Assembly (NCBI GenBank): GCA_963969365.1
Contig: OZ017751.1
Span: 2,976,001 to 3,040,000, forward strand
Direction: 5' to 3'
DNA length: 64,000 bases
From: Asterochloris sp. CNOR1
Lineage: Eukaryota; Chlorophyta; Trebouxiophyceae; Trebouxiales; Trebouxiaceae
The position numbers and the translations under genes were made by a program. The notes beneath the pieces were generated by a model. That model had not been told where the DNA came from. It searched no databases and saw only the letters and a list, made by a program, of their open reading frames with translations. Below, piece after piece: positions 81 to 63,000 of this stretch (within the stretch, counting starts at the first letter, position 1; every line of letters starts with the position of its first letter).

Positions 81-2948
81 CTGCTGCTGGTGCCCTGCCA
101 GCGTCATCTGCGCCATGCGCCGCGCCTGCTCGCTGGCCTCCCTCTGCTGCCGCACCTCATCACTGTTCTGCCTGATGTCCTCAATGAGGTCATCCCTGCA
201 GGGCAACATCAGAACATTTGCAGGGAAATTTAGTTGTGTTTGGTGCCTTGATTAAGGATGACCCTGCAGGGCTCAACAGGCGCAAGGTCAGAGACAACGT
301 AATCACTGCAGGTTGACAGGCATCCCACAGACTCAGGCCCAAGCAGCTGAGCGGCTTTGCTGCTGGAATGCTGCCAGACATCAAGTCTCTAGGGCCAATG
401 CTGGCCTGCACAGCTGTCCATTTAGCTTCAGATTCAGCAAAGCCCACCTCCTGCTATTTGGCATGATTGTTGGGATGACACGAGAGACACCTCAAGCACA
501 CAGCACCCACTGACCTCTGCAGCTGGTGCATGCGCACAGCAGTCACACCCCTGCAGGTCCCGCTCACCTCTGCTGCATTGCGAATGAGGCAGAGCTCCCA
601 CAGCTACTGCCCACGCCGACACAACAACTTACACCACAGAAGTGCACCTTGAGCAGTCCCATCCAACCCCAGCCCCCCTACCATCTGAGAGCCCCGCTGA
701 TGCGTTGTGCAGCACTCACACCCCTTCCTGAGGCCCCTGCCTACCTCTGCAGCTTGCGCGTGAGGCAGTAGTCCCCTGCTTGCTGCCCCAGCGCTTGGAT
801 GGCCTCCTGCAGGCTCATGTAGAAGCGCAGGCCCTCGCTGAAGTTGTCGCGCATCTCCTTAAACAGGACCACCTTGCCGCGCATGCCCCCTGCCGCCCCC
901 TGCAGGCAGCATGAGTGCTAAAAGTATGGGATGGCGTGGGCGCACAGTGTGCAGGCTGCGGCCCCACCAGCCCCTGCAGCCAGGCCTGCAGCTTTGCAAG
1001 GGCCACCTTGCCGCACATTCACTTCGCTGAGACCTGCAGGTAGCAGATGTGCATATCTGGGGATGTTTGTTGTGCAACAGCAGGCAGCTGCGCAAGGTAT
1101 GCTGGTTGTAATGCAGGGGCTCGCCGTTGAGGCCCTCCACCACTCCCAACAGGCAGCATGACAACAAGGTTTTGAATTGACACAGACAGCCCATTTTGTG
1201 CAAAGGCAGGGATGCAACTGCACAGGTTGGTGTAAGCGACAGGGGCCCGCAGCCAGCAGACGATGGGCCTGCAGGTCTACGCATGCTTTACAGGAAAATG
1301 TCATCAAGGGTTTGCAGCGTTGCGGGAGGGGGGCAGCTGCATGCCTTGGCAACATTGCAAAACAGCTGAGCTGGCTTCAGCTGCAGGGGCACACGGGTGA
1401 GAGGGCTCCCTTGCAGCAATGAACCTGGCAGGCTACGATGTGGGGCAGATCAGTACGACACCTCGTGCGGACTCCTGCTCGTGCAAGACCACCCCTGTGC
1501 TGCATCACTCCTCACAGCACGCAGAGGAAAGGGGATAAGACTGACAAAGATGACAGACCCAACACGCCCAGCGCCACTCCCTGATGCACCGCAAAAAGCA
1601 TGCAGACCAGCACAGATAGGACCATGACGGTGACGAACCTCACAGGCCTGGCGCCACTCCCTGAAGCCGAAAGCCTGCCGATAGGCCAGCGTGTTCTTAT
1701 TGATGATGTCCAGCAGCTCTGTCGACTTGGCCAGGTTGCTGTCTATCTGGGCCTGCAGGGCGCTGGCAACCCTTTTTATGATGATGTGGAAGCAACATGT
1801 GTTGTTTGTGGTCAGTTATGTGCAGATGCTCTGGCAGGTGGCTGACTATGAGTCAATGCTGCTGCATCATCAGGGCTGGCACTTGGGGAGCAGCCCATCA
1901 CAAGACGAGGTTTGATAAAAGGAAGAAGTAGCCCAACTGACTTCTTTGCTCAGCACAACATCTATGTGAGGCAGTGATATTGATTCATGCACAGCCGTCC
2001 AGCTCTCCACCCATCTGACGAATGCAAAGCTGCAATCCACCATACGATGGGCAGGCAGCCCAGCTCACCACGTAGGGCTGGTACTTGGCCAGCTCGGCAG
2101 TGAACATGGCGTCATAGTTGCCCGTGCTGGCCATCAGCTTGGGTAGGATGTTGTCCTTGTTGTGCTCCTCCTGTAGGCCGGCAGAGACAGCGCTTGGGAC
2201 CACCAGGCATGGTGGGGCAGCAGGGCCTGGATAGCAGAGGTCGCGCCACCTCAAAAAGGGTTAGTGCCAACCTGTGTGTGCAGATGACATTGTCAAGGGG
2301 GGCCAGTCATCAACGGTTACAGTGCAGCCAGTCCCCCAGGCAGCACCACTGCCACAACTTGCAAGCCGACATGGGCTTTTGGCAGCACAACCCACCTCCT
2401 GGCTTCCCACCTTGAGCAGGTGCTCCAGCCCAGCTTGCTTTGCAACAAATGTTAAAGAGCACATCTCACAAATGCAGTGCTCCAGCCAGCTCAACCCCCT
2501 GAATGGCAATGCCCTGAGGCCTAACAAACTCACACAACCCTGTGCACCACCTGTGACCTGCTGGCCCCTGGCACCAGATGACACCCTAGATGTGACCCTA
2601 GATGTTGTCACTTCCCCTCGTGCAGGACTCAAACCACACACCTTGAGAAACCCCTGCAGACTTAACACTCTCAGCATCACGGTGCAGCAAGCAACACGCA
2701 CGGCAATAAGCACCCCCTGTGTGCCCCACCTTGAGCGCCTCCTCCAGCCCAGCGCGCTCCCCTGACAGCCTGTCCAGCTGCTCCATTGCGCGGCGCAGGG
2801 TCGTCACAATCATTGCAGGCTCCTGGTCCGTTGTGGAGACCATGGGCGCCTGCAGGAGCAGGGGGCCTCAGAGGTCGCCTTAGCAGGAATGCTGTGACGA
2901 TGCATGAACTCTGGGCTGAGCTGGGGCTCACAGGGGCCGAGGTGGGGG

Positions 2949-2986
<38 letters not shown>

Positions 2987-5900: not shown

Positions 5901-8853
5901 GCAGCCAGAATTGTCTGAACAGCGTGTGCAGCCCTGCGTGGCACTCCCCTGGCAGAGACGGTGATGACTGCCATAGCAGCAGGAGCCAGACGCTGCACTG
6001 GGCCTCCGATGCGATTTGTGAGCTTACTTGAGCAGTTACCCAGGGGCAGCCTGCAGCCTGCCAAACTTGCAGGCCCCATGCACAGACAAAGCAGGTAACA
6101 CATGCTGCTCAATGAAACTGCCTCCTTGCTTGAGAGTTGGCCGCACCTCCTTGGTGAAGAGCGGGCTAACCCAGGCCAGAGGGTATGCGTTGCAGCTTTG
6201 GCAGCCCAGCAATTTGCTGTCATGTTATGCTGGCAAAGGCTATGCCTAAACACAAGGTGGCTTGTTTTTCGGGTGGTGTGTGGCACTAGAGCGCACCTCC
6301 TCGGTGAAGCGCATGGACTCCTGCAGCTCGTGCCCACACATCTTGGCCTCCTTCTTCACAATCAGCAGCATCCTGTGTGCCTCCTGCAGCAGCAGACAGC
6401 CGGGTCATCACTGTCACTGAATTCTTGCCGTGACACCAGCTGTCAGCGAGACCTTGTGGCGACCAAATGCAGCTCCCACAAAGTTGCTGGCATGTGCAAG
6501 CCACATTACTGATGCTGCATCGGCAGTCAGGCCCACCTTGAGGCGTGCAATCTCTTGCCCAATCTCATCGTCCTTGTGCAGCTGGACACCCATCTGCAGC
6601 TGGCTCTCCACCTCGTACAGGGTGGCCTTGACCTGGACGTGAGCCGTCCACGACCGGTCAAAGTGCGACCGCAGGGGGTCGCAGCTCAGCAGGCGCAGCA
6701 CATCCTCGTACAGAACGGACACCTGCTTGGCCAGCCTGCAGTGCAACACGAGCACGCTGTGTCTACAGCTGCGTGGGCATGCACTTACATGACACAACGA
6801 AGAGGCCTGCCTGCTGGTGCCCTGCAAGGCGCCATCATCTCTGACAGGTGCTACATTCCTGTATCACTGGCAGGGGAACCTGCTGCTTTTGGCATGCGGT
6901 CAGTCCAGAGAAGGCGGCATCCAGCAGGGCTGCTGTGCTGCTGCCAGCACTGGCAGACACAGTTTGTGGTGGTCGCCTTCATTGGCTTCTGGTGCTGCTG
7001 TACAGAGGTGAGCCCTGCGCTGAACTGACCTGGCCAGGATGGCTGGGCTCTTCTTGTCTGTCCGCGCCTTCTCAAACACGCACTCCTGCGCCTGTGCCAG
7101 ACAGAGCTTCTCCAACATGCCTGCACAGGGTGCACAGGGAGCTGTTGGCCACCAAGGCAACATTGTGCAGTGCTGGCCGGCCACCTCCTGCAGCATCTTG
7201 TTTTGCCCAAATTCCTGCCACTATGTCTCGACCTATGTCTTGTTGCACCCAGCTAGAGCATCTGAAGGCACACTTGCCTTGCATATGCATTCAAACCTTG
7301 TGTTGTGTTGTGGCCCCTCAGATGATGATCCAAAGGGTGGAGACCGCCTCACCTGCGGCCTCAGGAGAGATGTCCACGGGTCGCGGCTGCTCCACCCTGA
7401 GGCCGGCCACGTCCCTGAGGAAGGCAAAGGCGCCTGCAGCCTCCTGCAGGCAATCGATTGTGATTGAGGACCCGAGTTTCCAACCAGGCTGATGCCCAAG
7501 GGCTATGCAGGCCGGATACAGACAGGCTAGTTTGGCCTTGCTAAGGAGCAGGCTCAACACTGGAGACAGCTACGATGACGGGCAAGACAGCATGACCCTT
7601 CTGCTGGGAGTCAAAAGCTCTGCAATGGGGAACACGAATGGTCAGGCATGCGTACACGCCCGGGTCTCATGGTATGACTCCGCAAACTCTGGCCTGCTCA
7701 CATTCGTGCAGAAGGCTGAATCCACAGGGCAGCAGCCGGTAGGATGACAGAAAATAACAGCCAGGGCTAGCTGCAGACCTGGAACTTCCTGGCAGCATCC
7801 TTCAGACCCTGGTCTGTGGACTTGTCAAAGCCCAGGCCAATCTGGGTCAGCACCGCTCCAATGTTGAACACTACCGCGGCCTTCTCAAAGTGGATGCTGA
7901 ACTGCTCTGTGCGTTTCGTGTTGCGGAAGGCATCGTACCTGAAAGGAAGCAGCTTTGTGGTCAACTGATAAGCTGCTCTTAGCAGCTTTCATCTCAAGGT
8001 GGAGTGCCTTTGCATCATGATGGACACTGTCAGTAAGGGAAGGTGAGCTGCATGCAGCCAGGTGTGCCCAGTTACCCGTGATAACCGGGCCAAGCAGCAG
8101 CACGGCCTGCTCAATAGTCACAACTGCATAGCTGCACCCAGTAAAGTCGGTAAAGCTGGCACCCAGCCTGCTCTCAGCTACGCTTGACTGAGATTGATGT
8201 GAGCTGACCATGTGAACGACAGCATGACATGCTCCCTCTCTCGGCTAATGGGGAAGCGTGTCTCCATCACAGACAGGGATCGGAAGTACCTGCAGGCAAG
8301 AGGCTAGCACTTCACCTGTGGGGTGGCAACCTGCTCAAGCAAGTGCCTGCATGCTCAAGTCAGGTTGTTCGTGTGCATGCTCAAGTCAGATGGCTTGTGT
8401 GCTCCATCAGCAGGCTTCCCTCCTGCCAAGTACCTTTGCTTTTGGCGTCAATGCTGTGCAATCCAATCTGCACCGCCTGCTGGATGCTTAGCCGGCCCAC
8501 GTTCAAGTGGCAATACAAAATCTATCCTCACTAGGCTGGTGAACCCTCAACACAGACATGCCATGTCTCGGATGGCCAGGCAATTTTGGTAGACAATGCT
8601 GCGGGTCTAATGAGGTGCTCTGCTGTCCATCTTACTTGGACATAGTATCTCGCTGCTGGGGCAGAGACCCAGTCAGGTTGATGACATCGCTCCGCAGCTG
8701 ATTGACAGAAGCCAGATCATCAGCAGCCTCCCGTGCCTGCTGCTCTGAATAAGTGATTGCTATGTACTGAGAGATGGGGGTGCGCAGGTCCACTGGATCA
8801 CTCTTCTTGCAGTGCACCGCCAGCAGCATGCTGGCTGGCCCCATGCTGTCCAA
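81..8853 (-). CDS. ALIX: ALIX/BRO1-domain protein (PDCD6IP-like), 3' end outside window
   Basis: Endosomal-sorting (ESCRT-associated) adaptor of the ALIX/Bro1 family. Exons read on the minus strand: 8636-8853, 8209-8289, 7779-7938, 7353-7443, 7030-7120, 6537-6735, 6297-6383, 5489-5667, 4979-5084, 4491-4604, 3719-3875, 3336-3463, 2730-2849, 2069-2170, 1639-1752, 745-900 and 81-195. They give about 740 codons with GT-AG junctions at nearly every join. The BRO1 domain covers roughly the first 370 residues. Its hallmarks are LLAVHCKKSDPVDLR near the start, ETRFPISRE, the spliced SFT-WYDAF, HFEKAAVVFNIGAV, AGAFAFLRD and LAQAQECVFEKA. The V-domain coiled coils follow (for example MVDSIIRQQKDRLEAA, LREGLRFY-like SEGLRFYMSLQ). 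The usual proline-rich tail would lie beyond position 1. The start at 8853 is the first Met before the BRO1 motif; 8844 is an alternative. Exon limits at 745-900 and 81-195 are the least certain. Confidence 0.9.
2400..2445 (-). repeat. Decayed copy of an ALIX exon end and donor
   Basis: On the minus strand GCTGGGCTGGAGCACCTGCTCAAG|GTGGGAAG mirrors the true end of exon 2730-2849 (GCTGGGCTGGAGGAGGCGCTCAAG|GTGGGGCA). Confidence 0.6.
2951..2985. repeat. Poly-G homopolymer (35 G)
   Basis: An uninterrupted run of 35 G on the plus strand inside an ALIX intron, preceded by a shorter G-rich stretch from 2941. The ALIX pre-mRNA would carry it as a C run. The exact length may be affected by sequencing error. 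Confidence 0.9.
6130..6170 (-). repeat. Decayed copy of an ALIX exon end and donor
   Basis: The plus-strand string CGCACCTCCTTGGTGAAGAG at about 6145 mirrors CGCACCTCCTCGGTGAAGCG at the true donor of exon 6297-6383. It is about 150 bp into the following intron. Confidence 0.6.
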
Positions 8854-9970
8854 CTATCAGGAGATCCTGAGAAACAAGGGCAAGGCTATTATTGAAGAAT
8901 ATCCAGTGAGCCACGAGCTCGAGTGCAGGCAATGTTGACTGAGGCAGATGACTAGCTTCGCTTGGGTTCTCTGCGCTTTGGAAAGAAAGCCAACATGACT
9001 AAGCCCATGAGACAGTGTTGCCACTCAGAGGAAGAGGTGGCCTGCAGTTTTAGCTGCGAACTCTTTGCCAAGGGTGCATGAGAACGGGTTTGAACAGAAA
9101 ACGAAAGCTGTGCCCTCACTGCTTGTTTTCTTTCATAACTAATTTCAGGGGCTTCAAGGCTTGCTCAAGCAAGCATCTGTACATGCAGGTCCTGATTGCC
9201 CTGGTGCTTACACCGGCTGGGTGGATGCAATGGCGCAGAGTGGCAGGTTCAGTTGCCTGCAAGTGTTCTCAATGAGCCTGGCATCATGTCAGGCTACGCA
9301 GATCCACAAGGGTGCAAGCATTGAGCAGTCCCGCAGTGCAGGCACCAAACAACAAGGCAGTGCAGGCCTTGCAGGCGGATAATGCCACAGTATCTGTGAT
9401 GGCGTCAGCCTTGCTGATCAGTTATGGTGGGTTGGCAAGTAACACAACATTGCCATACCTGAGGCCTGCTGGTATGCAGTGCAAGGTCCAGTCAGGTGGG
9501 ACTTGGCTATGCACAGGTGCCCAGCGCAGTTTAGCAGATAGCACCCCTCATCACATTGCAGTGCATGCAGTCGTGATCATGGCCGTATTTTGCATGATGC
9601 TGCTTTGCAAATAACATCGTCCTCAACATCCCAGAAAGACATCTAGAAAGTCTCTCAACGAAAGTTTCCCAACCAGCTCTGCAATGGACAGGGTGTCAGA
9701 TGATGATGCCAAGCATGCAGCCTGGCCTGTAGCACCTGCTTGTGAGGTGAACTGCAACCTCAGAGCCAGAATCCTGGGTTCGTGTTCAGTGCCTGGCTGA
9801 GGACATCCCTGCAGCTGCCAAAGAACAGTGAGTCTGTGACACTGATGCAGTAGAGAAGTGCCTGGAGCACAGTCTTCAGGTTGACGCAATGAAACACCTG
9901 GTAGCAGAGGATGAGTGTCCACAGCTGTGTCTGCAGACTTCCCCTGGATGCCACCAACCAGGTTTGCCGC
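8854..9970. other. Intergenic stretch between ALIX and the duplicated block
   Basis: No exon with a recognisable family was found. The ALIX promoter and 5' leader should lie just above 8853. A short minus-strand reading frame ending at 9623 is listed separately. Confidence 0.5.
9623..9922 (-). CDS. Possible short coding segment, unrecognised
   Basis: A minus-strand frame of 99 codons whose C-terminal third looks protein-like (TLSIAELVGKLSLRDFLDVF, amphipathic helix character) before a stop at 9623. A TTGCAG acceptor lies within it, so only the last 20 or so codons may be a real terminal exon. No family recognised and no partner exons established. Confidence 0.18.
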   Translation of the reverse strand: MDTHPLLPGVSLRQPEDCAPGTSLLHQCHRLTVLWQLQGCPQPGTEHEPRILALRLQFTSQAGATGQAACLASSSDTLSIAELVGKLSLRDFLDVFLGC

Positions 9971-13755: not shown

Positions 13756-16314
13756 TCAGACACAGAGGCGCTTTGCCGCTGGCTGCAGCTTGTCGGGTGG
13801 GTTCTGGGAGGTGCTGGGGGGCTGCAAGGCGCTGGCCTGAGCATTGCAGCCATTGGTATTGGCACTGACTGGGCTGGACTGAGCGGCTGACATTATCAGT
13901 TTGTGACATATGTGCATGCATACACAAATGCTGAGAGTCACACCCTGATCATGAGTCTGCTGCTGAGTTTGGGCACTTGTGCCCCTTTGCTGCTGCCCTT
14001 GTTGCAAGGCTGCAGCAACAGCCTGCTGGTGCTTTTTTGCCTCTGCCACTTGGCCCTGCATGTCTTGTTGCCACTCGAGTGAGTTGAGCTCATAGACCAG
14101 CATGCCGCGGCATGGGCTTAACAAAGGCAGTGCAGGCTGGCATCTGCCTCATACTGCCTTTTCATGCATGGGCGGCTATTGCAGAAAGAAAGTCACTGTT
14201 CCCTGCAGGGCATGCAGGAAAAAGCAGTATGAGGCAGATGCCAGCGCATGCATGCATGGGCTGCGTAAAGGCTGTGCAGCAGCTAGCACAGGCATTTCGC
14301 CTGCCCCAAGAACGCTTCTTACTTCTTTGCTAGCATTGGCCTACCTTCACTCGGGGTTGATGCAGCTGGCAAGGCCGCCAGACTTGAACCGTGACTGGTG
14401 CGTAAGATCTATGGAGTGCTCACTTTCATGAGTCAAGCCCTGAGGCCAGAACAGGGCAGGGTCTTCCAGGAGAGCATTTGCAGACATGACGCCTTTGCAG
14501 CCAGTGTGTTGCATGACTGCCTACGCAGGCAGTCATGTAAGTCTTGCAGCACAGAGGACATGATCGTGCCTGACTTGAGCTGATCAGGCCCATGGTTTGC
14601 TGCTGGCTTTGAGGGCTGCATCAAGTCAGCTTGGTGTGTAGGCAGCCTCCAGACTCTCAGAGACATGGTACAGCTCTTCTCCCTTGAGCAAAAAGCAGCT
14701 GCTGCAGGTCAGCAAAGCCAGCAGGACTTGACCTGGAGGTGCCTGATGTTGCCATTTGCCAGCACAGGGATGTTAAGTGGTTCCTTCACAGCCTGCACAC
14801 AGCAGAAGGGCTGCTGAGTCACAGGGCAGGCTGCGACACGAAGCTTAAGGGGTTTCTCTGCAGCAAGCAGCAGACTAATTGGAAGAGACGGTCTGCCATT
14901 GGCCCAAGCTCTCCTGTACACGTTGCTCATAGAACCAGCGCCAACCTTCCAGACAGCAGCCAGCCGTTTTGTGGCTTGAAGCGGCCTGCTGAGCATGCAG
15001 CCTCAGCAAGTCTGTGCAGAGACGCAGCATGCATGCTCTGCTGGTCGGACCCTGGCCAAAGCTAAGGCTCCACCAGTGATAGGCACATAGGCAGCATCTG
15101 ACCATTGCTTAGGCTGCAAGTGCCAACCTTGATGATCTCTCAGTCCACTCTGACAGCCTTAGCATCATTTTGCTGCCATGTGCGCCCGTGCACCGCCAGC
15201 ACAGAGCAGCCTGCCCGCTGCAGCGTCTTGGCGTAGTCCAGCGTCTTCTGGAGGTCTGTGAACACACGGACCTTGCAGGTGACAGGCACATCCAGGCCCT
15301 GCACGGCAGCCAGCGAGGATTAAAATGCAGCAGGGAGACTCAGACGGAGCAGGCAGGGGCTTCATGAGAGGCACGCCCAGGCCAACAAAGGAGGCAAGTG
15401 CAGATGTTGCAGGTCACAGGCAGATGCGTGGCCTGCACAGCAGGTAGGCCCTGATAACGTGCAGGTCGCAGTGACATGCAAACTCTGCACTGCAGGCAGG
15501 GGCTGCACCCTGCCCTGTTGAGCTGAGAGCTATGTAGCCCCATTGCAGATCAGCAGCCAGAGCCTGGTGCGCTGTGACACAACATGCCAAGACGCTGCCA
15601 GAGGCACCCCGCCATCAGGGTGCCATGTACAGCAGCCCAGACAGCATTGGCAAATGGCTGGGAGAGGATGACCACAAGAACTGCAGGATCATCCAGGCAC
15701 AGGAGCAGGCAGCATTTGTGGTTGACTGCAGCCACTGCTTGACCTGCACACCCACCTCCGCAAGGGAGGACACCAGGGCCTCCACAAGGGGCAGGTCATC
15801 CATCAGGAACGCTCCATAGGCGGCTTCCTGGCGATGCGCTGGGGACAGCCCAGGTTGATGTCCACTGCATCACATCCATCCTGCACCAGCTTGGCTGCCT
15901 CCAGCAGGCTGGCGGGGCTGTTTGCACAGAACTGCACAAACAGCGGCCTGCAGCAGACAGCTGGTGGTGAGGGGTTCAGAACAATTCAGTAGCTGCATGC
16001 TAGGCATATGCCTGCTTCTTAGCAGCCCGCATTGCAGGCATGACCTGGCAGCTGAGTCCAGCTCCAGACTTACTGTGTGTAGCAGGTCGGGCAACCTGAC
16101 CAGGACATCTGTACAACAAACGGCATACATGAAGCCTTGAGCTCTGCACCCCTGCGACTTGCATCTGCTAGCCAGCCCACCTGTCCTCCTTTCCGTTGGT
16201 GGGTTGCTCATCCCTGTGTTTGGCATTCCCCAGGAAGCGCCAGCTGTGCAGCATGGGCATGTAGGCCAAAGTGCTGCCTTCCTTGCGACACAGCATCCTG
16301 AAGGCCAGCTCGCT
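13756..16314 (-). pseudogene. DUS1-type tRNA-dihydrouridine synthase, copy 1 (broken)
   Basis: Paralogue of the complete gene at 23626-27124. The SELAFRMLCRK exon (upper edge 16314), the [14 protein letters not shown] exon and the VTCKIRVF-type exon remain recognisable. Breaks seen by comparison: (1) the first exon with APMVDQ is absent and homology stops near 16440 at segment X; (2) one nucleotide is missing just after IARK, so the frame runs into a stop; (3) about 0.7 kb is missing near 14090, equivalent to 23955-24765 of copy 2, removing the exon with EYCDLAEADRTP and most of the last exon's N-terminal half; (4) a short inverted insertion lies at 14512-14537. The C-terminal tail still ends in KLQPAAKRLCV at 13756. 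I infer a pseudogene. Confidence 0.8.
14512..14537. other. Near-perfect palindrome inserted in the DUS pseudogene
   Basis: CATGACTGCCT - ACGC - AGGCAGTCATG, 11-bp arms with a 4-nt loop. The intact DUS copy has only one arm (CAGGCAGTC near 25159), so the other arm is an inverted duplicate of neighbouring sequence. Confidence 0.75.
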
Positions 16315-20326: not shown

Positions 20327-20394
20327 TGCTGACTGCCACTGAGTAACACATCATCGTCACACTGCTGGATTCTAAATGTTGCCTTAGATCTTGA

Positions 20395-23625: not shown

Positions 23626-26600
23626 TCACACACAGAGGCGCTTTGCCGCTGGCTGCAGCTTGTCAGGCGGGTTGTGGGTGGTGCTGGGGGGCTGCGAGGC
23701 ACTGTCTTGAGCATTGCAGCCATTGACATATGCAATGACTGGCTGGCCTGAGCGGCCGATGTCATCAGTCTGTGATTTGCACGAATGCTGAGTCTGAATA
23801 ATTGCATCCTCATCATGAGTGTGCTGCTGAGTCTGGGCACTTGTGTTCCTGTGCTGCTGCCCATGGTGCAAGTCTGCAGCAGCGGCCTGCTGGTGCTCTT
23901 GCGCCTCCGCCACTCGGCCTTGCATGTCTTGTTGCCACTCAACAAAGCCTTTGGAGTCCAGCTTTTGGAGCTCTGCCTCCTGGGCGTGTTGCTCCTGCTT
24001 GGCTCTCGACAAGGCTTCCTCCCGTGCCATCCTTGCTAGCGCCCTTTCTGACAGCTTTGGCACAGGGTGGTCCCTGCCCGTGGCAGGTATCCTTTGCTGC
24101 AGCTCAGTGCAGACCTCCCTGACAAGATCGAAGGTCAGGCGCTCCTTGTTAAGCCTGTCCCTGAGATCTGTGAACTCTGACAGCCAGTCTCCTGCAGAGG
24201 TACAGGTGGTGGCTTATCAGACCACAGGAGCGCTCTGACGCTGCTGGAGGAGTCATGTGGTCAGCTTGTTTGGCTGCCTCTGAATTCAGAGGCTGCTGGC
24301 AAGCAGCAAGCTACTTTGTGGAGTTGTGAGACTGGCTGGACTCATTGCTTTGAGCAGCTGAGCTGAGCCATCTGCCTAGCAGACCGTGAAACGAACTGCC
24401 AGCAGGGGTGGTTTAGGCACAGGCAAGATCGCCTACTCGGGTGTGGAAGGTGGTGCGCCACCAACATGTGCCAAATGACTGGCGTCAGGCTCACGCCACC
24501 TGTCAAGCACCGGCTGCGCAGGTTAAACCTGCAAGGTGCACCATGCCGGGCGCACCTATCAGGCTGAACGAGTGGCCGCGGACCATGCGGATGGGGGTTC
24601 TGTCTGCTTCTGCTAAGTCACAGTACTCCAGCAGTAGCCTCGCCCCCTCCAGCGGGCCCAGCCTGCCTGCACAGACATGCAGAGTACTTGGTAGTCGTGA
24701 CAGCCTGCCTGCATACAAGAAGGTGCTCGTGGAAGACTGAGCAGTGACAGCAGGGAACGATGGTCTTCATGGACCAGCGTGCCACGGCATAGGCTTGACA
24801 GAGGCAGGGCAGGCAGGGCAGCAAACAGTGACTTTCCCTCTGCAATATCCGCCCATGCAGGAAAAGGGCAGTGTGAGGCAGACGCCAGCGCATGCATGGC
24901 CCGCGTAAAGGCTGTGCAGCAGCTAGCACAGCCGAAATGCCAGTTACACTTGGAAGCGCTCGGCAATCCTTGCTAGGGATAGCCTACATACACTTGCGGG
25001 ATCGATGCAGTTGGCACGGCCACCTGACCTAGACCCTCATAAATGCATGTTATATGCAGACGGCTCACCTTCATCAGTCAGGCGCTGGGGCCAGAACAGG
25101 GCAGGGTCCTCCAGAAGAGCTTCTGCAGACATGACGCCTTCACAGCCGGTGTGCTCCAGGCAGTCAAATACATCCTGCAGCACAGGTGGTATGTGCGTGC
25201 CTGGCTGAAGCACATCTGGCCCATGGCCTGCTGCACCAAGTCACCTTGGTGTGCAGGCAGCCCCCAGAGTCTCAACAGCATGGACTGGTAATTTTCCCTT
25301 TTGATCAAAATTCAGCTGCTGCAGGTCAACTGAGGCGGGCAGCAACTGACCTGGAGGTGCCTGATGTTGCCATTTGCCAGCACAGGGATGTCCAGTGCTT
25401 CCTTCACAGCCTGCATACAGCAGAAGGGCTGCTGAGTCACCGGACAGGCTTGCTGCTCATAGCTCAAGCTCAGATATTCCAGACAGCAGACAGCCGTTTT
25501 CAGGCCTGGAGCGGCTCTGCTGAGCATGCAGCCTCATCAAGTTTGTCCAGAAAAAGCAGAGACGTAGCATAAATGCTCTGGTGGCATGTCCATGGCCAAA
25601 ACTCAGGTTCCACCTGCGCTAGGCACATGTGCATCATGACAGCTCTGCTGGCCAGACCATGATAGGTAGTTAGGCTGCAAGTGCTGACCTTGATGATCTC
25701 CCAGTCTGCTCGAACAGACTTGGCATCCTTTTGCTCCCGTGTGCGCCCGTGCACTGCCAGCACGGAGCAGCCTGCCCGCTGCAGCATCTTGGCATAGTCC
25801 AGCGTCTTCTGGAGGTCTGTGAACACACGGATCTTGCAGGTGACAGGCACATCAAGGCCCTGCACGGCAGCCAGCGAGAATCGGGAACGCAGTTGAGACA
25901 CTCAGAAAAGCAGGCAGGGGCTTAATGAGAGGCATGCACGGACCGACAAAGAGGTAAGCGCAGATGTTCAGGTCAGAGGTAGGTGCATGGCCTGCACAGC
26001 AGGTATCGCGACATGTTGCAGGTCACAGCGCTGTGCAAACCCTGCACTGCAGGCAGGAGCACCCTGTCCTAGTGAGCTCAGAGCTATGACCTCCATTGCA
26101 GATCAGCAGCCAGAGCCTGGTGCGCTGTGACACAATATGCTAGAGGCACCCCGTCCACCAGGGCGCCATGCACAGCACCCCAGACAGCATTGGCAAATGG
26201 CTGGGGAAGAATGACCAGAAGACTGCAGGAGAATCCAGGCACAGGAGCAGGCAGCATCTGTGATGCAGTCATTGACTGCAGCCACTGCTTGACCTGCACA
26301 CCCACCTCCGCAAGGGAGGACACCAGGGCCTCCACAAGGGGCAGGTCGTCCATCAGGAACGCTCCATAGCGCCCCTTCCTGGCGATGCGCTGGGGACAGC
26401 CCAGGTTGATGTCCACTGCATCACATCTATCCTGCACCAGCTTGGCTGCCTCCAGCAGGGTGGCGGGGCTGTTGGCACAGAACTGCACAAACAGCGGCCT
26501 GCAGCAGACAGCTGGTGGTGAGGGGTTCAGACCATTCCAGTAGCTGCACGCTGGGAATCTGCCTGCTGGTGAGCAGCCTGCAATGCAGGCACTACCTGGC

Positions 26601-30310: not shown

Positions 30311-33300
30311 ATGGATTTTGAAGTATGGGATGAAGGAGAGCTAGACTTCTGGGTCCAGGCAGAGAGTCAGGGCACGAGAGTACGTTGTGGCAGACTAGGG
30401 GAGTCTGCTGGGGCACAGCACAGCGCGCCATCGGGCCACCCTGCTGTGCCTGCTGGAGCAGTCCAGGGCACACCATCGTCACAGCACAGCACGCAGCCAC
30501 ATGCCACTCCACTGGGGAGCCCTGCACAGGCTGCCAAGGCGAGGCATGCGGAGCATCGCATGGGGCAGGTCCCCAGAACGCCCCGCAGCCACAAGCGCAC
30601 AGCCAGGGAGGCAGGGCTCAGACCCAGCCCCAACGCTGCTGCTTCATGTGAGCTGCATTCAGTCAATTTCAGACAACCAGCCCAGCAGGCAGCGCGCTCT
30701 GCCGCTGCCCAGGGCCCTGCCAGAGCCCTGACCCACCTGCCATGGTTGACTGGAGACCATCTTACGGCCGCCAATGCCACTGCTGCGTCACCACCCCCGC
30801 AGGCAACTTCCGAGTTGATCATGGAGCTCAGGCTGCCAGCCCAGGCACGCAGCTCACCCAAGCCTGCACAGCAGCCGCCCCAGCAGGCGGCAGACACACA
30901 GACTGCAACACAGGCCTGCACAGTCTCCAGGACGAGCCAGGCCAGGCCTGAGTCGCCACGACCAGCACCTGTGGCAACGCAGTCTGTTTCCCCAGCCTGG
31001 GCGGGCACTGAGCATGGATCCCTTCTGGGTCACAACAAAGCTGAGCCAACTTTTGCACTGCCTGTGGCAGATCAGCCTGCTGGAGCAGCAGGCCAGACTG
31101 CTGAGCTGGGTCCACATGTGCTCTCCGCATCACAGTCTGTCACCCCAGCATGCCCAGCTGAACCACCCCGCAAGTCGGACGAGGCCAGGGCCGAGCGGCG
31201 CAGGCAGCGCCAGGCGCTGCTGGAAGCAGCTCTGGAGGACATTGAGGACTTCGGTCTCAAGGCTGACCGCCTGCGGCGTCACCGCCCGCGTGGGCTGCGT
31301 GTGACTGACCTGGTGGCGGCAGTGTGGTGCCAGCAGCAGCTGGCCTACACACTCAGCCTCACAGTGCACCAGGTGGATGCATCAAATTGACACAACCTCT
31401 GCAGCTGCTGCACTGCTGTGTGTGGGGCCCCTGCCTCATTGTCAATGAGGTGGGGCCTGAGTGTGTTATCTGGATGCTTGAGCAGGTCGCCTGGCAGTGA
31501 TTCAGGGGTCAATTCAATGGCTGTCCTGCTTCTGTCAATTGTGGGAAATGCAGGGCTGCTAGAGTGGCGCATGGGCCTGAGGCAGGCAGGACGGCACTTG
31601 AAGCTGCCTGATAACTTTCTCAAGCAATGGTGATGCTCAGTGCGGCATTTAGGTCGGCCTGCATGCCTGGACACTGAAGTGGCAGTACCGCACTCAAACC
31701 ACCTCCAGCTGTGTGGCACTCATGTGCGGCACCTGCCTCTTCCCAAGTCACATTCCATCCCATGTATGGATGGCACTGTGTCACTATGACCTGCTCGATC
31801 CATTTGGGTAGGAGGACACCGCCACAGCCATACATCTGTCTCAGCATTACCTTCTGGTGCTGCCGCAGGAGCTGCTGGAGACCGCGGCCATGGCAGCTGG
31901 GACTGCAGTACACCAGGCGCTGGAGGCTGAAGTGTCTGAGGCAAGAACTGGGCCAGGGCAGTGGCTTGATTCAATTAGTTGTCACCTGTACAAGGCTTCT
32001 TTTCAGGGCTATTGCTGCCAGCACCGGCCGGGCTGATGTGTTGCCAGCGCATCTGTTGCGGGTTGGCCCTTCTAGCATCACTCAGGCGCTGGACTTCATG
32101 GCACAGCGCGGTCATGTCAGAGACGCCTGAAACCTCGCCATCTGTGATCTGGAATGTAGGTTCAGGACCTGCTGCCCTGCACACACACACACACACACAC
32201 AAATTCTGCCCCTTGAAGGCATAGGGGTTGCTTCCCGACCACTGTTAGCGCGCAAAGCACGGTCTGCAAGACATGTTCACTATTCATGACCTTTTATGAG
32301 CAGACTGTAACCCCTGCTGCAGGCTGTTGAGCTGGAGACTCAGACTCGCGAGGATGCCTGGGGCCTGCGCTTTCTCAACGTGTTGAACTGCTTCAGGCAG
32401 CTGACTCAGCAGGGCCTCACACGTGAAATATTTCTATGGGGTCTCATTGAGGTGAGTTGGTGGACCTGGCCTACTGTGGCTTCCACTGTGTTGCCAGCCA
32501 CCTTGATGGCACTTAAAGGTGCATGGCATATCTGCATTGGCAGTGGGCAGCGAGAGGGAAACCGGTTGTATCATGCAAGCTGTACTGAGCTGTGAGATGC
32601 ACCCCATCCCTAGCCGTGATATGCGACGGGGGCCACCCACTCTTGCCCGTTGCCAGCCAAGCAACTGCATGGCTGTGAGTGTGACAGCTGAAGTGCCATG
32701 ACAATTGAGTTGTAGAGGAGGGCAGCTCACTTCAAGGTCATGAACCCTGTGGCTGATAATTGGGCGCAACCTGCAACGGAGGCAAATTTACATCATCTTT
32801 GACCAAGCAAGTCTTGTGACCTGCTGTATCTGAAAGGCAGCCTCCACTAGTTTGAAGGCACATGTGCTCCCCCATGCCTGCACAGGAGGCAGGTGCGCAA
32901 TATCTGCCACAGCTACAGTCTCTGAGATGCAGGACACAGATGTTTGGCAAACGCAAGGCTGACACACGGCGCTGGCCAATGCTGCAGGGCAGATGGGTGC
33001 ACAGCATCTGCCATCAGCTGCAGATCACTTGCAATGGCAAAAGTTGGGGTATGCAGGACCCACATGCTCATGCCATGCAGTGAATGAGACATGGCGCTGG
33101 GCAGTTGCTGCAGGGGAGTTTCCCTGGGTGCATGAAACTTGGACTCAGCTGCAGCTCACACCCATTCTCATGATGCAGACTGTGAGCTGCAGGCCACACA
33201 AGCTTTGGCAGCACAGTGGCTGAACATGGCGGCACTTGCCATCAGCTGCTGCTCACAACCACGGGGTGATGCAACCATGACATGCAGGCCACACCAGCTT

Positions 33301-35248
33301 TGGCAGCACATGGTGCTGCCCAAGGCCTTCAGGGGAGGTGGGTGTGCCACGCTTGCGGCCAGTGGGATGCAGGGATGCACAAGCTCTGGCAACACAGTGG
33401 CTGACACACGGCCCTGGCCAATGTCTGCAGGGCAGGTGGGTGCGCGGCATCTGTGACCAGCTGCAGATCACCGACGGCGGCGAAGTGTTGGTTGTGGAGC
33501 ACAAGACACGTCAACGCCCCTCCTTGCCCCGAGAGGAGCAGCAGGCCACTGCCAAGCTGCAGGTGGCTCCACAACTGCGTCATGCACATCCAGCCGCAGG
33601 GGGGTGCATTTGTGGCACTGCCTGCACGCCTATCTGCCTGCATCCCTCCCTGCCCCAACAGGAGCCGCAGGCCTCTGCTGAGGTGCAGGTGCCTGTGCAT
33701 CTGCCCTGAGGCTGCTGGCGGTCCAGCGCTGCATCCAGGGCCAGAACTATCTAAAGCAGAACAGCACACCGCGGAGCTGCAGCTGCATGCGTGTCTGCCT
33801 TCTGCTGCAACTTGCTGCACTGCCAAGCCATGCATGCCTTGGTGTTGAGGACCTTGCTGTGGTTGCACCAGATGCAAGGCGCGTGCACATCCAAGTGGCT
33901 GTGCAGCATGGCTGTGCAAGGCTGCTGTGCTGGCCCTGCGCCCCACATGGCCAGCAGGTGTACCTGCTGTGCCTGTGAGCCCCTGACCTACCAAGCGCTG
34001 CTGTCCCAAGCTGTTGTCCCACCTGCACAAGCTCAGGGGCAGGCACTGAGTGTCTGCTCCTTTGCTGCTTGTAAGCAGTCCCAGCTGGCCGCCACCTACA
34101 GCCCACAGACCATGCCACTGACCCCCCTGCAGGAAGCCTGTGCAGCTCTGCCAAGTTGACAGCGATGCTTGCAGGCTCCAAGGCCTGCAGTGTATGCTCA
34201 GATTTGTTTTTGAAAGGGAATCATTTGGGGGGACACAGAATGAATGATTGTCAGTCCAGGTTCAAAATCAACAAACCAGTGCTGACTGCTGAGAGAACAG
34301 CTGATAGTCTGCTGGGTTAGATAGATACTGCTCCTCTCCTGGCCACCACCTGCAAGCCTCAGATTTTGCAGCATGCTTCAGCGGCAGAGCTGAGTGTGCT
34401 CGCTGTGCCTGCAGGCCATGATCTACCAGATGCTGCTCACCCAGCTGGCCACCACCTGCAGCCCCCAGGGCCTCCACGCGCTGTGCCGCTTCCTGCACCT
34501 GAAGCGCACCCGCAAGCTGTCACCGCTGCTGGTGGATGCGCTGAACGACATGGGGCTGCAAGCTCCCCCCTCAGGGCTCAGCCTGTTGACCCTTGGGCGC
34601 TTTGTGAGGGAGGCTGCTGCAGGTGAGATGTCAGTGCTCAGTGGCAATCCAAGGGGTTGCAGGCTGTCCCTTGGGGTGTAGTAGCCTTCCATGGTCCTGT
34701 CTTGTGAGAAAGGCAGCTGCCAATGAGCGAGTTCTCAGAGCTCCCAGTCCCTGCACCTGGTGAGGTTGCAGAACTGCAAGGAGAGGGTCGTCTGCTGTCT
34801 TTGCAGCATTTGTGAGGAAGTGCTGGGCTAGTGGGCCTGATCGTCGTGCTCGCCTGCTCCTGTTCCGCTGTGCTTGTCAGCAACAGTATTTCCAGTGAGC
34901 CTTGTGCCCTGCTGGTCATCCGTGAGTTGCCCACAAGGACTACGAGTACTACGAACATGAACCCCTCTCATGCGCTTACTTGAGTTGGGCCTGCCTGCAG
35001 GCCTGCCAACGTGCAGCAGCAGCCCTGAGGTGCGCTACGTCTGGGCAGCTGAGAAAGCTGAGGATAGGTGGCCGCTTGGCGCACCAGTTGCAGCTCACTA
35101 TGATGTTGATTTTGTAAGAGCTCAGTGTCGAGGGGCCATGGCCTTCCTGGCCGGTCATTTCTCTCCTGTCACCACAACGCATGCCTGGAAGTGTGGTTAC
35201 TGCATTTTCAGAGGCAAGTGCCCTGCAGCAGCTCCTGTTGAGGCTTAA
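30311..35248 (+). CDS. EXO5: Exonuclease V (EXO5/DEM1), Fe-S cluster single-strand DNA exonuclease
   Basis: PD-(D/E)XK exonuclease with an iron-sulfur cluster, acting in mitochondrial or nuclear DNA maintenance depending on species. Exons 30311-31372, 31869-31940, 32323-32451, 33431-33562, 34415-34622 and 35001-35248 sum to 1851 nt, giving 616 codons with all phases closing. Motifs: VTDLVAAVWCQQQLAY (first cluster Cys), AAGTAVHQALEAEV, EDAWGLRFLNVL, GICDQLQI and VVEHKTRQRP (catalytic D, E-x-K). The terminal WKCGYCIFRGKC supplies the remaining three cluster Cys. The N-terminal ~300 residues are Ala/Pro/Gln-rich and absent from the 373-residue human enzyme. Exon 2 ends at a GC donor (GAG|GCAAGA). 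A protein-like segment at 31552-31629 (LLEWRMGLRQAG) does not fit the phase and is left out. Residues 33-300 could include a targeting signal; not resolved. Confidence 0.9.
32180..32201. repeat. (CA)11 microsatellite
   Basis: Pure CA dinucleotide run in an exonuclease V intron. Confidence 0.95.
32880..33430 (+). repeat. Degenerate tandem copies of an exonuclease V exon junction
   Basis: The intron before exon 33431-33562 holds about four decayed units of 110-120 bp resembling the acceptor plus exon start. The best copy, at 32961-33050, shares GACACACGGC, GGCCAATG, CTGCAGGGCAG and CAGCTGCAGATCAC with the true junction at 33406-33476. Others begin near 32880, 33100 and 33190. The copies lack the catalytic EHKTR part. 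Confidence 0.7.
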
Positions 35249-50144: not shown

Positions 50145-53100
50145 TCAGCCAAGACCTTGCAGCTTCGGCTTGAGCATGGCCAGGCAGGCCTGGTCTGCTG
50201 CTGCATACAGCGGAAGGTCGCTGTCAGGCCACACGTCTCGGAAGGTGTCTGGCCGGCTCAGGATGCCCAGGCACGCAGACCCCAGCAGCTCGGTCCTCCA
50301 CGTCTCTGGAGGCGCCACATCAGGGCCGCACGCCTTAGCCAGCCATGCATTGTACGTCCACTGGTCCCACGGTTGCCCAGGTGCTGCCTGCACGAGAATA
50401 AGCTGCAAGGGTGGCAGCGGCAGTAGCACAGCATGTGCCTAGCCCACAAGACCTCTTTATGATGCAGGTACATGCATGTACAAGAAGCTGGTGGTCTGGA
50501 CCTAGCGCTTACAGGCACACCTTGACCAGCCCCAACAATTCTGTGCAGGCGACAGGCAGCCGGGTCCATTCAAGCAGCGCTGCCATGTCGCCTTGTTGTG
50601 CAGCCACTGCAAAATGACCTCGAACCCCTGTTGGAGCCTGGGCTTTTGGCCAGACATGCTGCACAGCCCTGCAGAAAAGGAGGCCAACCTGGTTGTGGGT
50701 GTCCAGCACCCGCACTCCGGCCTGCTGCAGCTCCTTGTAGAAGGCCTGGGTGTCTGCAAGCATTTCTGTCCTGCTTGGCAGGGAGGCTCTGCCAGACAAC
50801 AGGCGCGCCACCCACTTGGCCTGCGGCGACAAACACACAGCATTACTCAGTCCCTGCGTCATCTCTGCCAGGCCTGCAAGAGAGCTGCAAGGGCTGTCGC
50901 AGAACTCACTGCGTGTTTGGCAAAGCCTGTGATCACATGCGGACAAGGGAGCACATTACGTCTGGACACTTGCTAACATGACACGCACCTGTGCTGCGCA
51001 CAACAGGACTCTGGCATGGCTTGCACATAAAGCACCTTCCCTCTGGAGCTCTGAGCAAATTGGATGATGTTCTTTGGAGTGCTGCTTTGGCCAGACACAG
51101 CCAACAACAGCACAGTGCACAGACGGAGGTCAGGGTGCGCACCTGCATCTCCATCTGAGGGTAGGGCACATTCTTCCAGAGCAAGCCCACAAAGGCCAGA
51201 GTGGGGGCCAGCACTGGATGCAGCACGTGCTTGTACAAAGGGTCGACGCGCATACCCTCTGTCCTCAGCAGATCAGGCGGTGCCAGCCAAGGGTAGGCAT
51301 ACTGGTAGCCTGTGCAGTACAAAACGCTGTCCACGCCCTGCACGGTTGTCCCATCCTGCAGGCAGGCAGCACGAGCGTGTTTAGACAGCCAGCACGCTAG
51401 TACCATCGTGCAGGCAGGCAGCAAGAGCCCATAAGACAGCCAGCACGGTTGTGCCATCCTGCAGGCAGAGAGCAAGAGCCTGTAAGGCCGCCAGCAGGGT
51501 CAAGGCAGCATTGCCGGCCAGTTTTTGCTGCTTGCAATCAGATCTGCAAGATTTACGCAGGCGCCTTCGGCTGCAGCATGCTCCTTCAGTGCAGGGCTGT
51601 TTTTTTGGGGGGCCACCCCTCTTTGTCAGGGTCAACAGAAGGAGATTGGGTGGGCGGCGGGTATGGATGAGTGGCCAGCCAGGCCCACAGCTCACCGCAA
51701 AGACTGCTGTCCTTCCCTCATTGCGCAGCTCTGTCAGCATGGCCACAGTCTGCAGGTTGGGGGGTTTCCTGTCCTGAACCTCCCACTGCCAGGCCCTGCA
51801 GTGCAACATGCTTTTAGCATCGTGTCAGGATGTGCACACATGTTTGATGTGTCCACACAACAGTTGATGAAGGTCGAATACTGCTCTGTCAAGCAGCAAA
51901 GGAGCGTTCTGAAGATACATAGGACTGGTGGCGTGGAGGAGCTGAGGATTGCAGAGAGCAGCTGAGACAAGGGAGCCCCACCTGGCACTGTGGTACACTT
52001 GCTTGGCTGAGCCCGCCACCTCACGAGCCAGCTCTGTACCTGCAAAGACAAGGCCAGCATGGGGCTCTGCAGACACCCTGAGCACCTGCTCTTGCCCATG
52101 TCACAACAAGCCCATGACAACCCAAACCACACCTCAGTCTTTGCGCTATCCAGCAGAGGTAGTGGTTGCCAAAGCAGGGGCTCCAGCTGTCGCATTTCTG
52201 GCTCACAGGCGAAGCATGATGAAGCTGCCACAGCCACGACAACTGCAGCCACCGATGAGGCTCAATAGGACGCACCATGCATGCTAAGACTTCACCTCAC
52301 CTGAGAACATGTTGCCCACAACCACCACTACCTGGTCGGCAAAGCAGCTGCTGTTGCGGTAGTTATGGCTGTGCATCTGGTGACCCCGCCAAGCTTGCAT
52401 TCCAGTCACCTGCAGAGGATGCGGCAACAATCACAACAAGTGGCTTTGATCACAACAGGCTCTCGTTCCCCCATTACTGATACTGCACATCATTGCCGCT
52501 GGCCGCGTGGGCTACGTCTAAGGACTTGCGCAGTGTGGTCCACCCCACACACCATTGCGCAGGCAAGTCAGTCAATGCACTCTCAGGACACAGGCTGTTG
52601 CTCTACAACGACCCTTCAGCCCAGTAGCACTGTTGGCAGCCCACCTCTGGCAGGTTGGGCTCGGTGTAGTTGCCCACGCAGCTGATGACTGCATCAAACA
52701 CAGTCGTCTGCCTCCCCTGCTGCGAGTCTGCAAGTGGAGCCTTGCTGCCCAGGCCGTATTGCTGGTGGCCATGCCCAGGGGCTGGGCTGGCTTGGGGCCG
52801 GTCCTGCAGGGAGCTGGTGTCTGTCGGGTCAGCCGGCAGCTTTGTGGTGCCATTCAGAGGTGGCTCGGCCACGCTGTCCGTTGCAGGCCCAGTTCTTTGC
52901 TTGTTGCTTGGCGGCTGAGCCATGCTGGCTGGTGCATGCCCCTTGCTTGTGTCATTCTGGGATGGATGTCTCCCATCGTCGCTCACTGGCTCAGTGGTCA
53001 CCCTCCACCTGGGCGCTGTGCTGAGAGAGGCAACGTCGGAGGACTTGTTCCTGCCTGCAGGGCACATATGGCAGTCTGGGGCAGGCTGAGATTTAGAACC

Positions 53101-60082: not shown

Positions 60083-63000
60083 CTACCTATACTGGCGATA
60101 GTGAGGGGTGTACATTGCATCTTGGACAGCCTGCATGACGTCAGGCGGTTTGGGCTGCTCTGTAGCCACGCCTATGTCCCAGGCTCGCTGGGCCACTGCC
60201 TTAGCCACAGAAGCTGAGATCTCCCTGCAAACAGGCAAGCACATTCCTCAGCTTCTGGGGCCAACACGAATGCATCTGATTGCGTCTGAATGCAACTGCT
60301 CACCAGAGCCACAATAGTCTTACCTTCATGGAAGAACATGCATTGTGATGCAGCTGCTTTCAAAGCAACACCTTGAGTCCCCTGCCAAGACCATGCCTGA
60401 TCTCCCTCACGGGCAGTCAGCCATCCCCTCAACATACAAGCAACACAGCGCATGGTGGCTTGGCTCTGATCAAAACAGCACAGGCCACTCCCAGTGTCTG
60501 CAAAATCCCCCAGGCACCCAGGGGAATGCTGACTGGCCATGCCCAGATACAGGCACAGGAACAGGCCTTTGCATGATTCAAATATTTCAGAGCAAACCTG
60601 ATGGGCCCTATGGGAGGGTAGATGCTGCCTGCTGCCCTGTCATCATCAGTCACCATCTTTGCCAGGGCCTCTGCAGCTGCAATAAACAGCTCATCGCGCA
60701 GCTTGGTGCTGCGGGAGACCAGGCAGCCCAGGCCAATGCCTGCAGAAATGTGCAGGGCAGGACTCAGTGCCAGGGCTTGGCAGGGCGATGTGGCAGTTCC
60801 ATGCCGCAGGCATACAGGCAGCCCAGGCCATGGCAGCTGCTGCTGCTGCTTGCAATGCAATTCAGGCAGCCCATCTGACACCTGCAGGGTGAGGCAGGCA
60901 GTCTGCTTGCAGGAAACCCTCCCCTGCAACAGCAAGGGTTGCAGCCTGTGACTCGAGCCCACCTGGGAAGATTTTGATGTGAGTCTTACAGGAGGCAGAG
61001 CTGGCTGCTACCACAAAGCTTTTCAGTGGCGCTATCAGTGGTGGGCTGTTGGTGGCCGCCATTACCCTCAGGCATTCCTTAAATGCCACAACTGGAGCCC
61101 CAGAGCAAAGTCGGCTCCACTGCCTGAACCAACCTGGGAAGATGTGCACAGTCTCGCACGAGTTCCAGCACACGTCATCGTGCTTCGCCGGGGGACCATG
61201 GGTTGTGGGCCGTTGAATGCCACCATGGCACCTAGGCAATCCTTGCGTGCCACGTATACTGGAGCCCCAGAGCAAAGGGCAGACCTCTGCCAGGACTCAA
61301 AACCCACCTGGGAAGATGTAGGCAGTCTCGCAGGAGCGCGGCCGGAACTGGCGCCCGTCTGGCAGCTCCACTGGGGCACTGTCGGTGCGGGTGTCCTTGT
61401 CCGCAAAGATGCAGCGCCCATCGGTCCATTGGTAGGCGTTCTGGGGGGTCACCTCTGCGCCGGGCTGGGACAGCGGCATGATGACAGGGCGCTCGTTGTG
61501 TTTGGCCATCTCTGCGCACACCTGTGCGTCGCAGAGTGATCAAGCTTTTCTCTTTGAACCCGGCTCGATGGGACGTGAGCTGGCATGCATGCCGAAGACA
61601 CTGCAGCTTTTCAAGCCCTAAGACAGGTACACATCACCATGTGCTGAGCCCGTTGTGCAGAGGCGTCACAGACTTTCCTTTGAGATGTAGAGTCGCACCA
61701 GCCAGCCTTGCTGATTAAGACTGCTGCAGTCAACTTCAACACCCTCACAACAGATTCAATATCAGCTTCAGAGGCTGCACCCTTGCACCATAGAAACTGC
61801 GCGCAGTGCTCCAGGCAGCTAAGCAGGTGCAGCCAGCGGCTGTTGTAAGGTGGCAGCGGGATACAGAGCTCATCCTGCAGCTGGTTTGTGAACCCTGGCA
61901 TGCAAGCAAGACCACTTGTGTTACGACAGGCACCCAGCAGGAGGACCATAGTCTGCAGCCCTGCATCTGAGCGCCTGACAGGGAGGACGCCAGCCCGCCT
62001 CCCGCGCCTTCTGCCTCTGGCTGTGTGTCGGCACCTGCCTGAGCTACTGCGGCCTGTCTGTGTTCGTATCATGCAAGCGTGCCATACTTGAGGCTCCTGC
62101 AGCCTGCTCCTCACCTCCTGTGTGAATGTCACTGTGGGTGGCATGGAGGCCATGCCGATCAGTACAGAGGGCTTGATGGTTTTGACAGCGGACAGCAGAT
62201 CAGGGCACGTAGGCTCGCTGTGGCAGTAGGCCAGCTTATGGTCTGCCAGCGTGTCACTGTCCCCACGGCTGCGCACCACCAGACCCTGCAGGGTCAAGAC
62301 AGAAGGTGATGCACATGGTCTCTCAAGTGGGAAGCTGTCAGACCCAGGCAGGTTGCTGTCCCCACAACTGCGCACCAAAAGGCTCAACAGGCAGATGTAG
62401 ACCAGGCAAACAGCCAAATCATGCCACAACTCAGCAGCCACCACAGCTCAGGCCCGCCCTGGAGTCCACCAGCCACCACAGCTCAGGCCCACCTCAGTAT
62501 ATACCCGCTGCCACAGATCAGGCCCCTCTCGGAAGTCACCAGCTGGTCCAAGTCAAAAAATACCTCAGAGAAACCCTCAGCTAAGACTATTGGCAGCCTA
62601 CCTCAGAGTCTACCAGCCACATCCTCTTCCGGGCCTGCACGATGGTCTCGAGGGCATGCCTGCTCTCCCGGGTGATGGCAGCCTGCAGCAAAATAGAGCG
62701 TCTGCCTTAGAGGGTGTAATGCTGCCCATCAGGGGATTGGGCAACACACTGCAATACAGCTAGCATTGAGGAGGCCCAGGCAGCACCAGGACATGCTATG
62801 ATCGCTGGCCATTGCCTGGGCCAGCACTCCTGCCCAGACAATGTTAGGACATGCCCCTGGCCACCTCAATCCTACACCCAACGCCTGGTGCAAGAGCCAG
62901 CACACTTGCACAGTTTTTCCCACCCCTTGGCATCAAGATGCTGCCAAGTGCAGGGTGCCAGCATTGTGTGACTCAGAGGCGCAGAACAGAGCAGCAGCGC

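Follow-up and report, generated by a model that had tools for sequence, protein, structure and literature searches.

Introduction

Internal gene duplication is reportedly widespread, as papers citing the 2009 study by Gao and Lynch relate. Tandem duplication is, in the consulted parts of two papers, a proposed and experimentally supported route by which introns are gained (PMC3443670, PMC4974935), and introner elements form another described system of repeated intron sequence (PMC9860276). Here we describe copies of splice junctions, each with a little of the adjoining exon, that lie inside introns in a 64-kb window of the genome of Asterochloris sp. CNOR1 (the window being the whole stretch of DNA analysed, positions 2976001-3040000 of contig C6), along with their recurrence elsewhere in the same genome. 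In the part of the genome that was sampled, about one in thirteen exon ends has a decaying copy, in the same direction, within the neighbouring intron. We put at roughly three in four the probability that these copies are relics of ordinary small tandem duplications that straddled a splice junction, the outer copy being the one that codes. A survey of such junction relics within existing introns was not found in the open-licence literature, a weak negative given that subscription papers are mostly missing from it.

Results

Exon ends recur in their own introns across the sampled genome

The sample comprised the window and 23 further 10-kilobase (kb) stretches of the same genome, 294 kb in total or about 0.5% of an assembly of 56,383,464 bases in 21 contigs, 18 of which are chromosome-sized according to the contig listing and whose telomere repeats read TTTAGGG. 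The content of guanine plus cytosine (GC) was 57.9% over the first 244 kb sampled; for Asterochloris glomerata, the consulted part of the genome paper gives 56 Mb, a GC content of 56-62% across 98% of the genome and about nine introns per gene (PMC6652019). A self-trained gene finder run on the 294 kb returned 58 genes with 489 introns. We then removed exons that scored 3 or less or were shorter than 30 base pairs (bp), counting the gap over a removed exon as one intron, and obtained 376 introns flanked by confident exons, with a median length of 394 bp. These gene models are our own predictions and are backed by known proteins (coatomer beta, eIF3a, NAD kinase, FMO, malic enzyme, ALIX, Exo5, an RCC1-like protein and CBF/Mak21). 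Before filtering, the gene finder had called some relics small exons, namely 2396-2422 and 60963-61004 of the window.

The main evidence comes from an exon-end test in which the outermost 50 bp of an exon, minus the three bases at the junction and with no intron letters included, was aligned to up to 300 bp of the exon's own adjoining intron. The test used 669 of the 752 exon ends, introns shorter than 160 bp and exons shorter than 60 bp being left out. At a score of at least 28, 50 of the 669 ends matched their own intron (41/524 outside the window), versus 0/510 when the exon's other end was used, 1/669 with the own intron reversed, about 4/3345 with introns of other loci and about 5/3238 with other introns of the same stretch. 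The copies are direct, as the comparison of 50 with 1 in 669 indicates, and only the near end of the exon yields them. Matches occurred in 18 of the 24 sequences and in 46 of the 345 introns tested, and were balanced between donors (25/335) and acceptors (25/334). Coding-sequence ends beside untranslated regions, a small sample, gave 0/25 at stop ends and 1/21 at start ends.

Looser thresholds point in the same direction: at a score of at least 20, 22.0% of exon ends matched their own intron, versus 6.6-7.8% in the controls, and own-intron scores were shifted upward even below 26 (p about 1e-6 or less), so that older relics probably exist as well. The excess at the loosest threshold suggests that some 15% of exon ends carry a relic. 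The first-pass annotation of the window had proposed a genome-wide self-comparison of introns with their flanking exon ends, and in the sample such matches recur across the genome far above what composition yields. CTGCAG-rich composition was considered as the cause and rejected, because the reverse, other-intron and other-exon-end controls are all at or near zero. The accompanying suggestion that this genome generates such sites frequently stands as a count within its sample (46/345 introns), the count referring to one genome and implying no ranking among genomes.

A second test, which did include intron letters, gave a concordant picture. Queries of 40+40 bp spanning the junction were compared with the rest of the own intron, with at least 10 aligned bases required on each side and a score of at least 24; 719 of the 752 junctions could be used, the other 33 lying near an end or having too short a target. 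Of these, 43 matched their own intron (35/563 outside the window), and the same threshold was reached by 4/7190 comparisons of junction queries with other introns and by 30/2076 pseudo-junctions placed within introns.

Five sites in the window

The first-pass annotation had named five sites, two in ALIX and one each in the genes for exonuclease V (Exo5), FMO and malic enzyme. For each, we aligned 40+40 bp round the true junction to the rest of the intron and took as null 500 dinucleotide shuffles of that intron. All five copies proved genuine in this comparison, exceeding 500 of 500 shuffles (Table 1; the FMO acceptor scored 62 against a best shuffle of 30). The best copies lie at 32957-33027 for Exo5 and at 51440-51496 for FMO. 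When the window was searched against itself with BLAST, the FMO site was recovered with an expect value (E) of 2.5e-8 and the Exo5 and malic enzyme sites with still lower ones (Table 1), and neither ALIX copy was found at E of 1e-3 or less. The Exo5, malic enzyme and FMO sites are thus strong and the two ALIX sites weak. In the exon-end test only malic enzyme, with a score of 32, reaches 28; the score is 24 for the ALIX junction at 2729 and lower for the remaining three sites, because their copies hold little exon or lie beyond 300 bp. Further exon ends in the window that do reach 28 are those at 899, 1638, 15298, 33562, 34414, 59061, 60739 and 62285.

Unit sizes of about 50-175 bp, as first proposed, fit some of the sites, and the FMO array is detected by Tandem Repeats Finder as 3.1 copies of 51 bp at 51340-51500; the range does not fit the first ALIX copy, about 320 bp from its source, or the best Exo5 copy, at 443 bp. 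The Exo5 intron holds a series of repeats whose self-BLAST pairs include 32831-33028, 33137-33215, 33234-33310 and 33378-33412. The view that only the true copy continues into protein was borne out at malic enzyme, where exons joined at 61308 and 60739 encode AYIFPG-IGLG and align without a gap. In ALIX, 17 of the 20 predicted exons form a single open frame of 720 residues when three small exons, the relic at 2396-2422 among them, are omitted. Gene identities rest on Pfam for ALIX (BRO1, 1.7e-98; ALIX V domain, 5.5e-59) and Exo5 (2.5e-35), and on solved structures for FMO (6wpu) and malic enzyme. An ALIX intron also contains a run of 35 G (window 2951-2985).

Structure and drift of the copies

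The distance between source and copy was 58-296 bp when 300 bp of intron were searched and 63-443 bp when 600 bp were searched, and repeats confined to introns showed a similar spacing by eye. Arrays are present, as in the 51-bp FMO array and the Exo5 series, and many other sites hold a single copy. The most elaborate case is the NAD kinase gene in one of the further stretches (L005, 8500-9320), in which one exon is duplicated at its acceptor as well as its donor end (exon region 8841-9311). Its donor end is present in three copies, starting at 9010, 9106 and 9226, and the middle one appears by eye to be a chimera that resembles copy three on its left and copy one on its right, which is what unequal exchange or slippage predicts. 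The solved NAD kinase 9cr4_A holds the segment once, and both copies in our query align to its residues at about 126-153. Use of the second donor would give the predicted protein a core containing a repeat of 32 residues. The middle copy is the exception to the general lack of an open coding frame in the copies, and with this open frame the exon is a leading candidate for alternative splicing.

Elsewhere the copies are decaying, most of them so far that the ends of the duplicated unit can no longer be located. The frame is broken by 12 of the 17 gaps in their exon parts (here and in the mismatch counts below, the duplication at 35.8-37.2 kb and pairs that are exonic on both sides are omitted). 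Two paralogues in the window (exons at 15298 and 25859) share a pair of acceptor relics in matching positions (partly by eye), so that the duplications are older than the duplication of the gene and have drifted since. Frame gaps, splice dinucleotide retention and paralogue drift gave no sign of constraint on the copies. The claim of the first-pass annotation that decoy splice sites arise in this way held up: 31 of 43 copies retain GT or AG, and 16 of these 31 inner sites score at least as high as the true site, so that something besides the splice consensus must decide between them. In sum, the copies are local, direct, recurrent in the sample and decaying without visible constraint, and bear no mark of intron origin.

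Origin of the copies

The account that we favour starts from a tandem duplication, with a unit of mostly 60-200 bp, that would by chance span a splice junction and leave two copies of exon end plus intron start, or the mirror image. The cell would tolerate such a duplication if the outer splice site is used. The outer copy would keep joining the coding sequence, being kept because it encodes protein, and the inner copy would turn into plain intron and drift, so that introns would collect decaying pieces of exon ends and look-alike splice sites. Arrays might then expand and be shuffled as copies slip or exchange unequally. Slippage or unequal exchange is likewise the probable duplicating process itself, and the outer copy is presumably the spliced one.

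It is hard to credit that the copies instead arise from faulty gene prediction or from a composition rich in CTGCAG. The gene models are self-trained and built from genomic sequence, not from complementary DNA (cDNA), and two relics were at first called exons, as noted above; against this, next to no matches came from the reverse-complement, other-intron and other-exon-end controls, and the exon letters involved in repeats look no less coding than exon ends elsewhere, with 0.086 log-odds per base for 33 junctions, 0.088 for the 729 other exon ends and -0.097 for the intron side (the coding model being trained on the same genes that it scored, and the pooled figure including the duplication at 35.8-37.2 kb). 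The genes moreover match known proteins, and the junction lies inside a well-aligned stretch, gapless or nearly so, for malic enzyme, FMO and the coatomer beta donor; eIF3a has three matching junctions, one inside an aligned stretch, another in the gap that separates two such stretches, and a third beyond the query. The first-pass annotation had pointed to tandem duplication as a route to new introns; on that model the relics would record the birth of introns from AGGT-bearing exon segments duplicated in tandem. For other organisms the model is established, in the consulted parts of the two papers cited above, and its mark would be likeness between an exon end and the far intron end. Among introns of at least 300 bp this likeness is at background, with 0/476 at a score of 28 and 1/476 versus a null of 7/2198 at 24; a slight excess at 20 (12/476 versus 35/2198) speaks for the model and is not built on. 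The copies sit inside existing introns beside their own junction, and we rejected intron birth by tandem exon duplication on the absence of the far-end mark, which leaves it highly improbable. Selection that keeps the inner copies as alternative or regulatory splice sites would account for the retained GT or AG, for the many inner sites that equal or surpass the true one, and for mismatches being fewest at second codon positions (112/608, 80/603 and 136/606 at the first, second and third positions, p 0.0002). The dinucleotides are, however, retained no better than others in the same alignments (1236/1797, or 69%), most gaps in the exon parts break the frame, and by eye the relics of the two paralogues have drifted in the same way as the surrounding intron, so that we think this very unlikely.

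A greater challenge to plain tandem duplication with decay is the possibility that the junction itself is special, and several observations weigh on that side. In introns of at least 300 bp, with bootstrapping by intron, exon ends matched at 41/491 and interior tiles at 207/8070 at a score of 28, a ratio of 3.26 (95% interval 2.08-5.34), which fell to 2.35 (1.65-3.33) at 24, and intron bases 10-60 from the junction matched at 25/508, a ratio of 1.92 to interiors; uniform neutral duplication with fully fixed exons simulates a ratio of 0.83-1.72 for exon ends. Among 80 repeat pairs (20-800 bp apart, at least 25 bp long, E of 1e-3 or less), 32 span a junction and 18 are intron-only, when random placement gives about 11:28; the ratio of 32:18, or 47:18 with exon-only matches, compares with simulated ratios of 0.56-0.78 and 0.57-0.98, respectively, although such pair-level contrasts overstate certainty because pairs and tiles within one intron correlate. 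Exon parts of the pairs differ at 18.1% of positions and intron parts at 20.4%, when a conserved exon should widen that gap, and the uneven mismatches among codon positions, which we ascribe to silent change in the true exon, could also reflect weak constraint on the copies. A duplication process aimed at exon-intron junctions, with a property of the boundary creating a hotspot and introns growing mainly from their edges as they take in exon ends, would fit the enrichment at exon ends and in the first intron bases, and also the climb of the exon-end match rate with GC, from 0/62 below 54% GC to 25/203 above 66%. The GC step, the CTGCAG palindrome at acceptors and transcription-linked breaks are candidate properties. 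Interior repeats climb with GC too, however, CTGCAG in the query raises exon-end and interior rates alike by about 1.7-fold, repeat coverage has no sharp peak at the junction, and some of the excess follows from the persistence of the exon copy. Exon ends are richer in GC than interiors (61.6% versus 56.5%), and repeats are commoner in GC-rich DNA; weighting by GC brings the interior rate to about 3.1%, against 7.5% for exon ends, a ratio of about 2.4 by arithmetic on binned rates. Paralogue identities of 86-90% for exons and 76-85% for introns imply that the real asymmetry in decay is probably smaller than simulated. GC content and the slower decay of the exon copy account for most of the excess at exon ends; at most an approximately two-fold excess is left unexplained, and we do not claim a junction-specific process. 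An aimed process is therefore unlikely in our judgement, and the broader proposition that tandem duplication in this lineage favours junctions, with introns growing from their edges and repeatedly capturing exon ends, is one that we regard as doubtful.

Features of the window and assembly

Table 1. Coordinates of true junction exons and their intronic copies in the 64-kb window
Feature	Position	Strand	Basis
ALIX exon whose low end is the true donor (2729/2730)	2730..2849	-	Own gene model; Pfam
Relic of the ALIX 2729/2730 donor in the intron, GT retained	2406..2434	-	Score 38 versus best of 500 shuffles 29
ALIX exon, true donor 6296/6297	6297..6383	-	Gene model; Pfam
Relic of the ALIX 6296/6297 donor, 21 bp, weak	6142..6162	-	Score 32 versus best of 500 shuffles 27
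Exonuclease V exon, true acceptor 33430/33431	33431..33562	+	Exo5 by Pfam
Relic of the donor end (33562) of the Exo5 exon	33644-33694	+	Repeat pairs; exon-end score 45
Decaying copies of the Exo5 acceptor region, upstream intron	32831..33412	+	Self-BLAST E 9.9e-20 to 5e-4; score 100 versus best of 500 shuffles 31
FMO exon, true acceptor 51355/51356	51143..51355	-	Alignment to 6wpu
Extra 51-bp copies of acceptor plus exon start within the FMO intron	51356..51500	-	Tandem Repeats Finder array; best copy score 62
Malic enzyme exon, true donor 61307/61308	61308..61509	-	Gapless alignment over the join to malic enzyme structures
Intronic relic of the malic enzyme donor region (61127-61162 being the junction part)	61038..61162	-	Self-BLAST E 1.1e-12; score 47 versus best of 500 shuffles 25
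Exon with two relics upstream of its acceptor	15140..15298	-	Test match; second relic by eye in alignment
Paralogous exon with the same two relics	25689..25859	-	Score 27; alignment, by eye

The two exons at the foot of Table 1 belong to a pair of paralogues (14924-16437 and 25454-26989, 83% identical) that lies within a gene family array at 10987-30015. The array includes three copies on the + strand, at about 10987-14076, 17721-20399 and 21008-23940, that are 78-80% identical, and inverted repeats occur within and between the flanks of two gene-family copies (14136-14245 and 24818-24889). Introns of the paralogues align over their full length, and the window thereby holds its own paralogue test. 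At 35864-37169 there is a 654-bp tandem duplication with 99.85% identity, either very recent or an effect of assembly, and a much older related copy (65%) is located at 38311-38683. Among the small contigs of the assembly, C19 has 43,319, C20 110,056 and C21 215,390 bases (the last by subtraction), C20 and C21 being near Asterochloris organelle genome sizes; for Asterochloris glomerata the consulted part of the paper gives a mitochondrion printed as '11,0932', which we read as 110,932, and a chloroplast of 217,546 bases (PMC6652019).

Discussion

Copies of exon ends in their neighbouring introns are real and recurrent in the sampled genome and have a mostly ordinary cause, with a modest excess at exon ends left unexplained. 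They put numbers on a route by which introns can lengthen and acquire look-alike splice sites without harm to the protein, given that 46 of the 345 introns tested carry a relic. As 16 of 31 inner sites score at least as high as the true one, ordinary cDNA could reveal which one the spliceosome selects when two sites are nearly identical. The relics also call for caution with gene finders, which can take them for small exons. Were junctions indeed preferred sites of duplication, the genome would hold thousands of decoy splice sites of equal strength, by extrapolation from 0.5% of it, and would offer a natural test bed for the spliceosome's choice of the right copy.

Of the described systems, introner elements resemble the present copies as repeated intron sequence that carries splice signals; in the consulted part of their description, however, introners are inserted into many genes, whereas the copies reported here match their own intron (PMC9860276). 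Sharing of the introner type across loci was not seen with exon ends (about 4/3345 at 28) or junction queries (4/7190 at 24), the searches having included no comparison of intron with intron. The internal gene duplications of Gao and Lynch (2009), compared here through the papers that cite them, share with our case the frequency of small duplications inside genes; they differ in that what we find are non-coding relics in introns, beside the source junction. Intron gain by tandem duplication, with ATP2A1 and the potato RdRp gene as examples, is similar too: there a short tandem duplication touches splice signals within a gene, and in potato RdRp the intron-exon structure itself was duplicated (PMC4974935). 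The outcome in those genes is a new intron, whereas in Asterochloris sp. CNOR1 existing introns receive decaying copies of the exon ends beside them.

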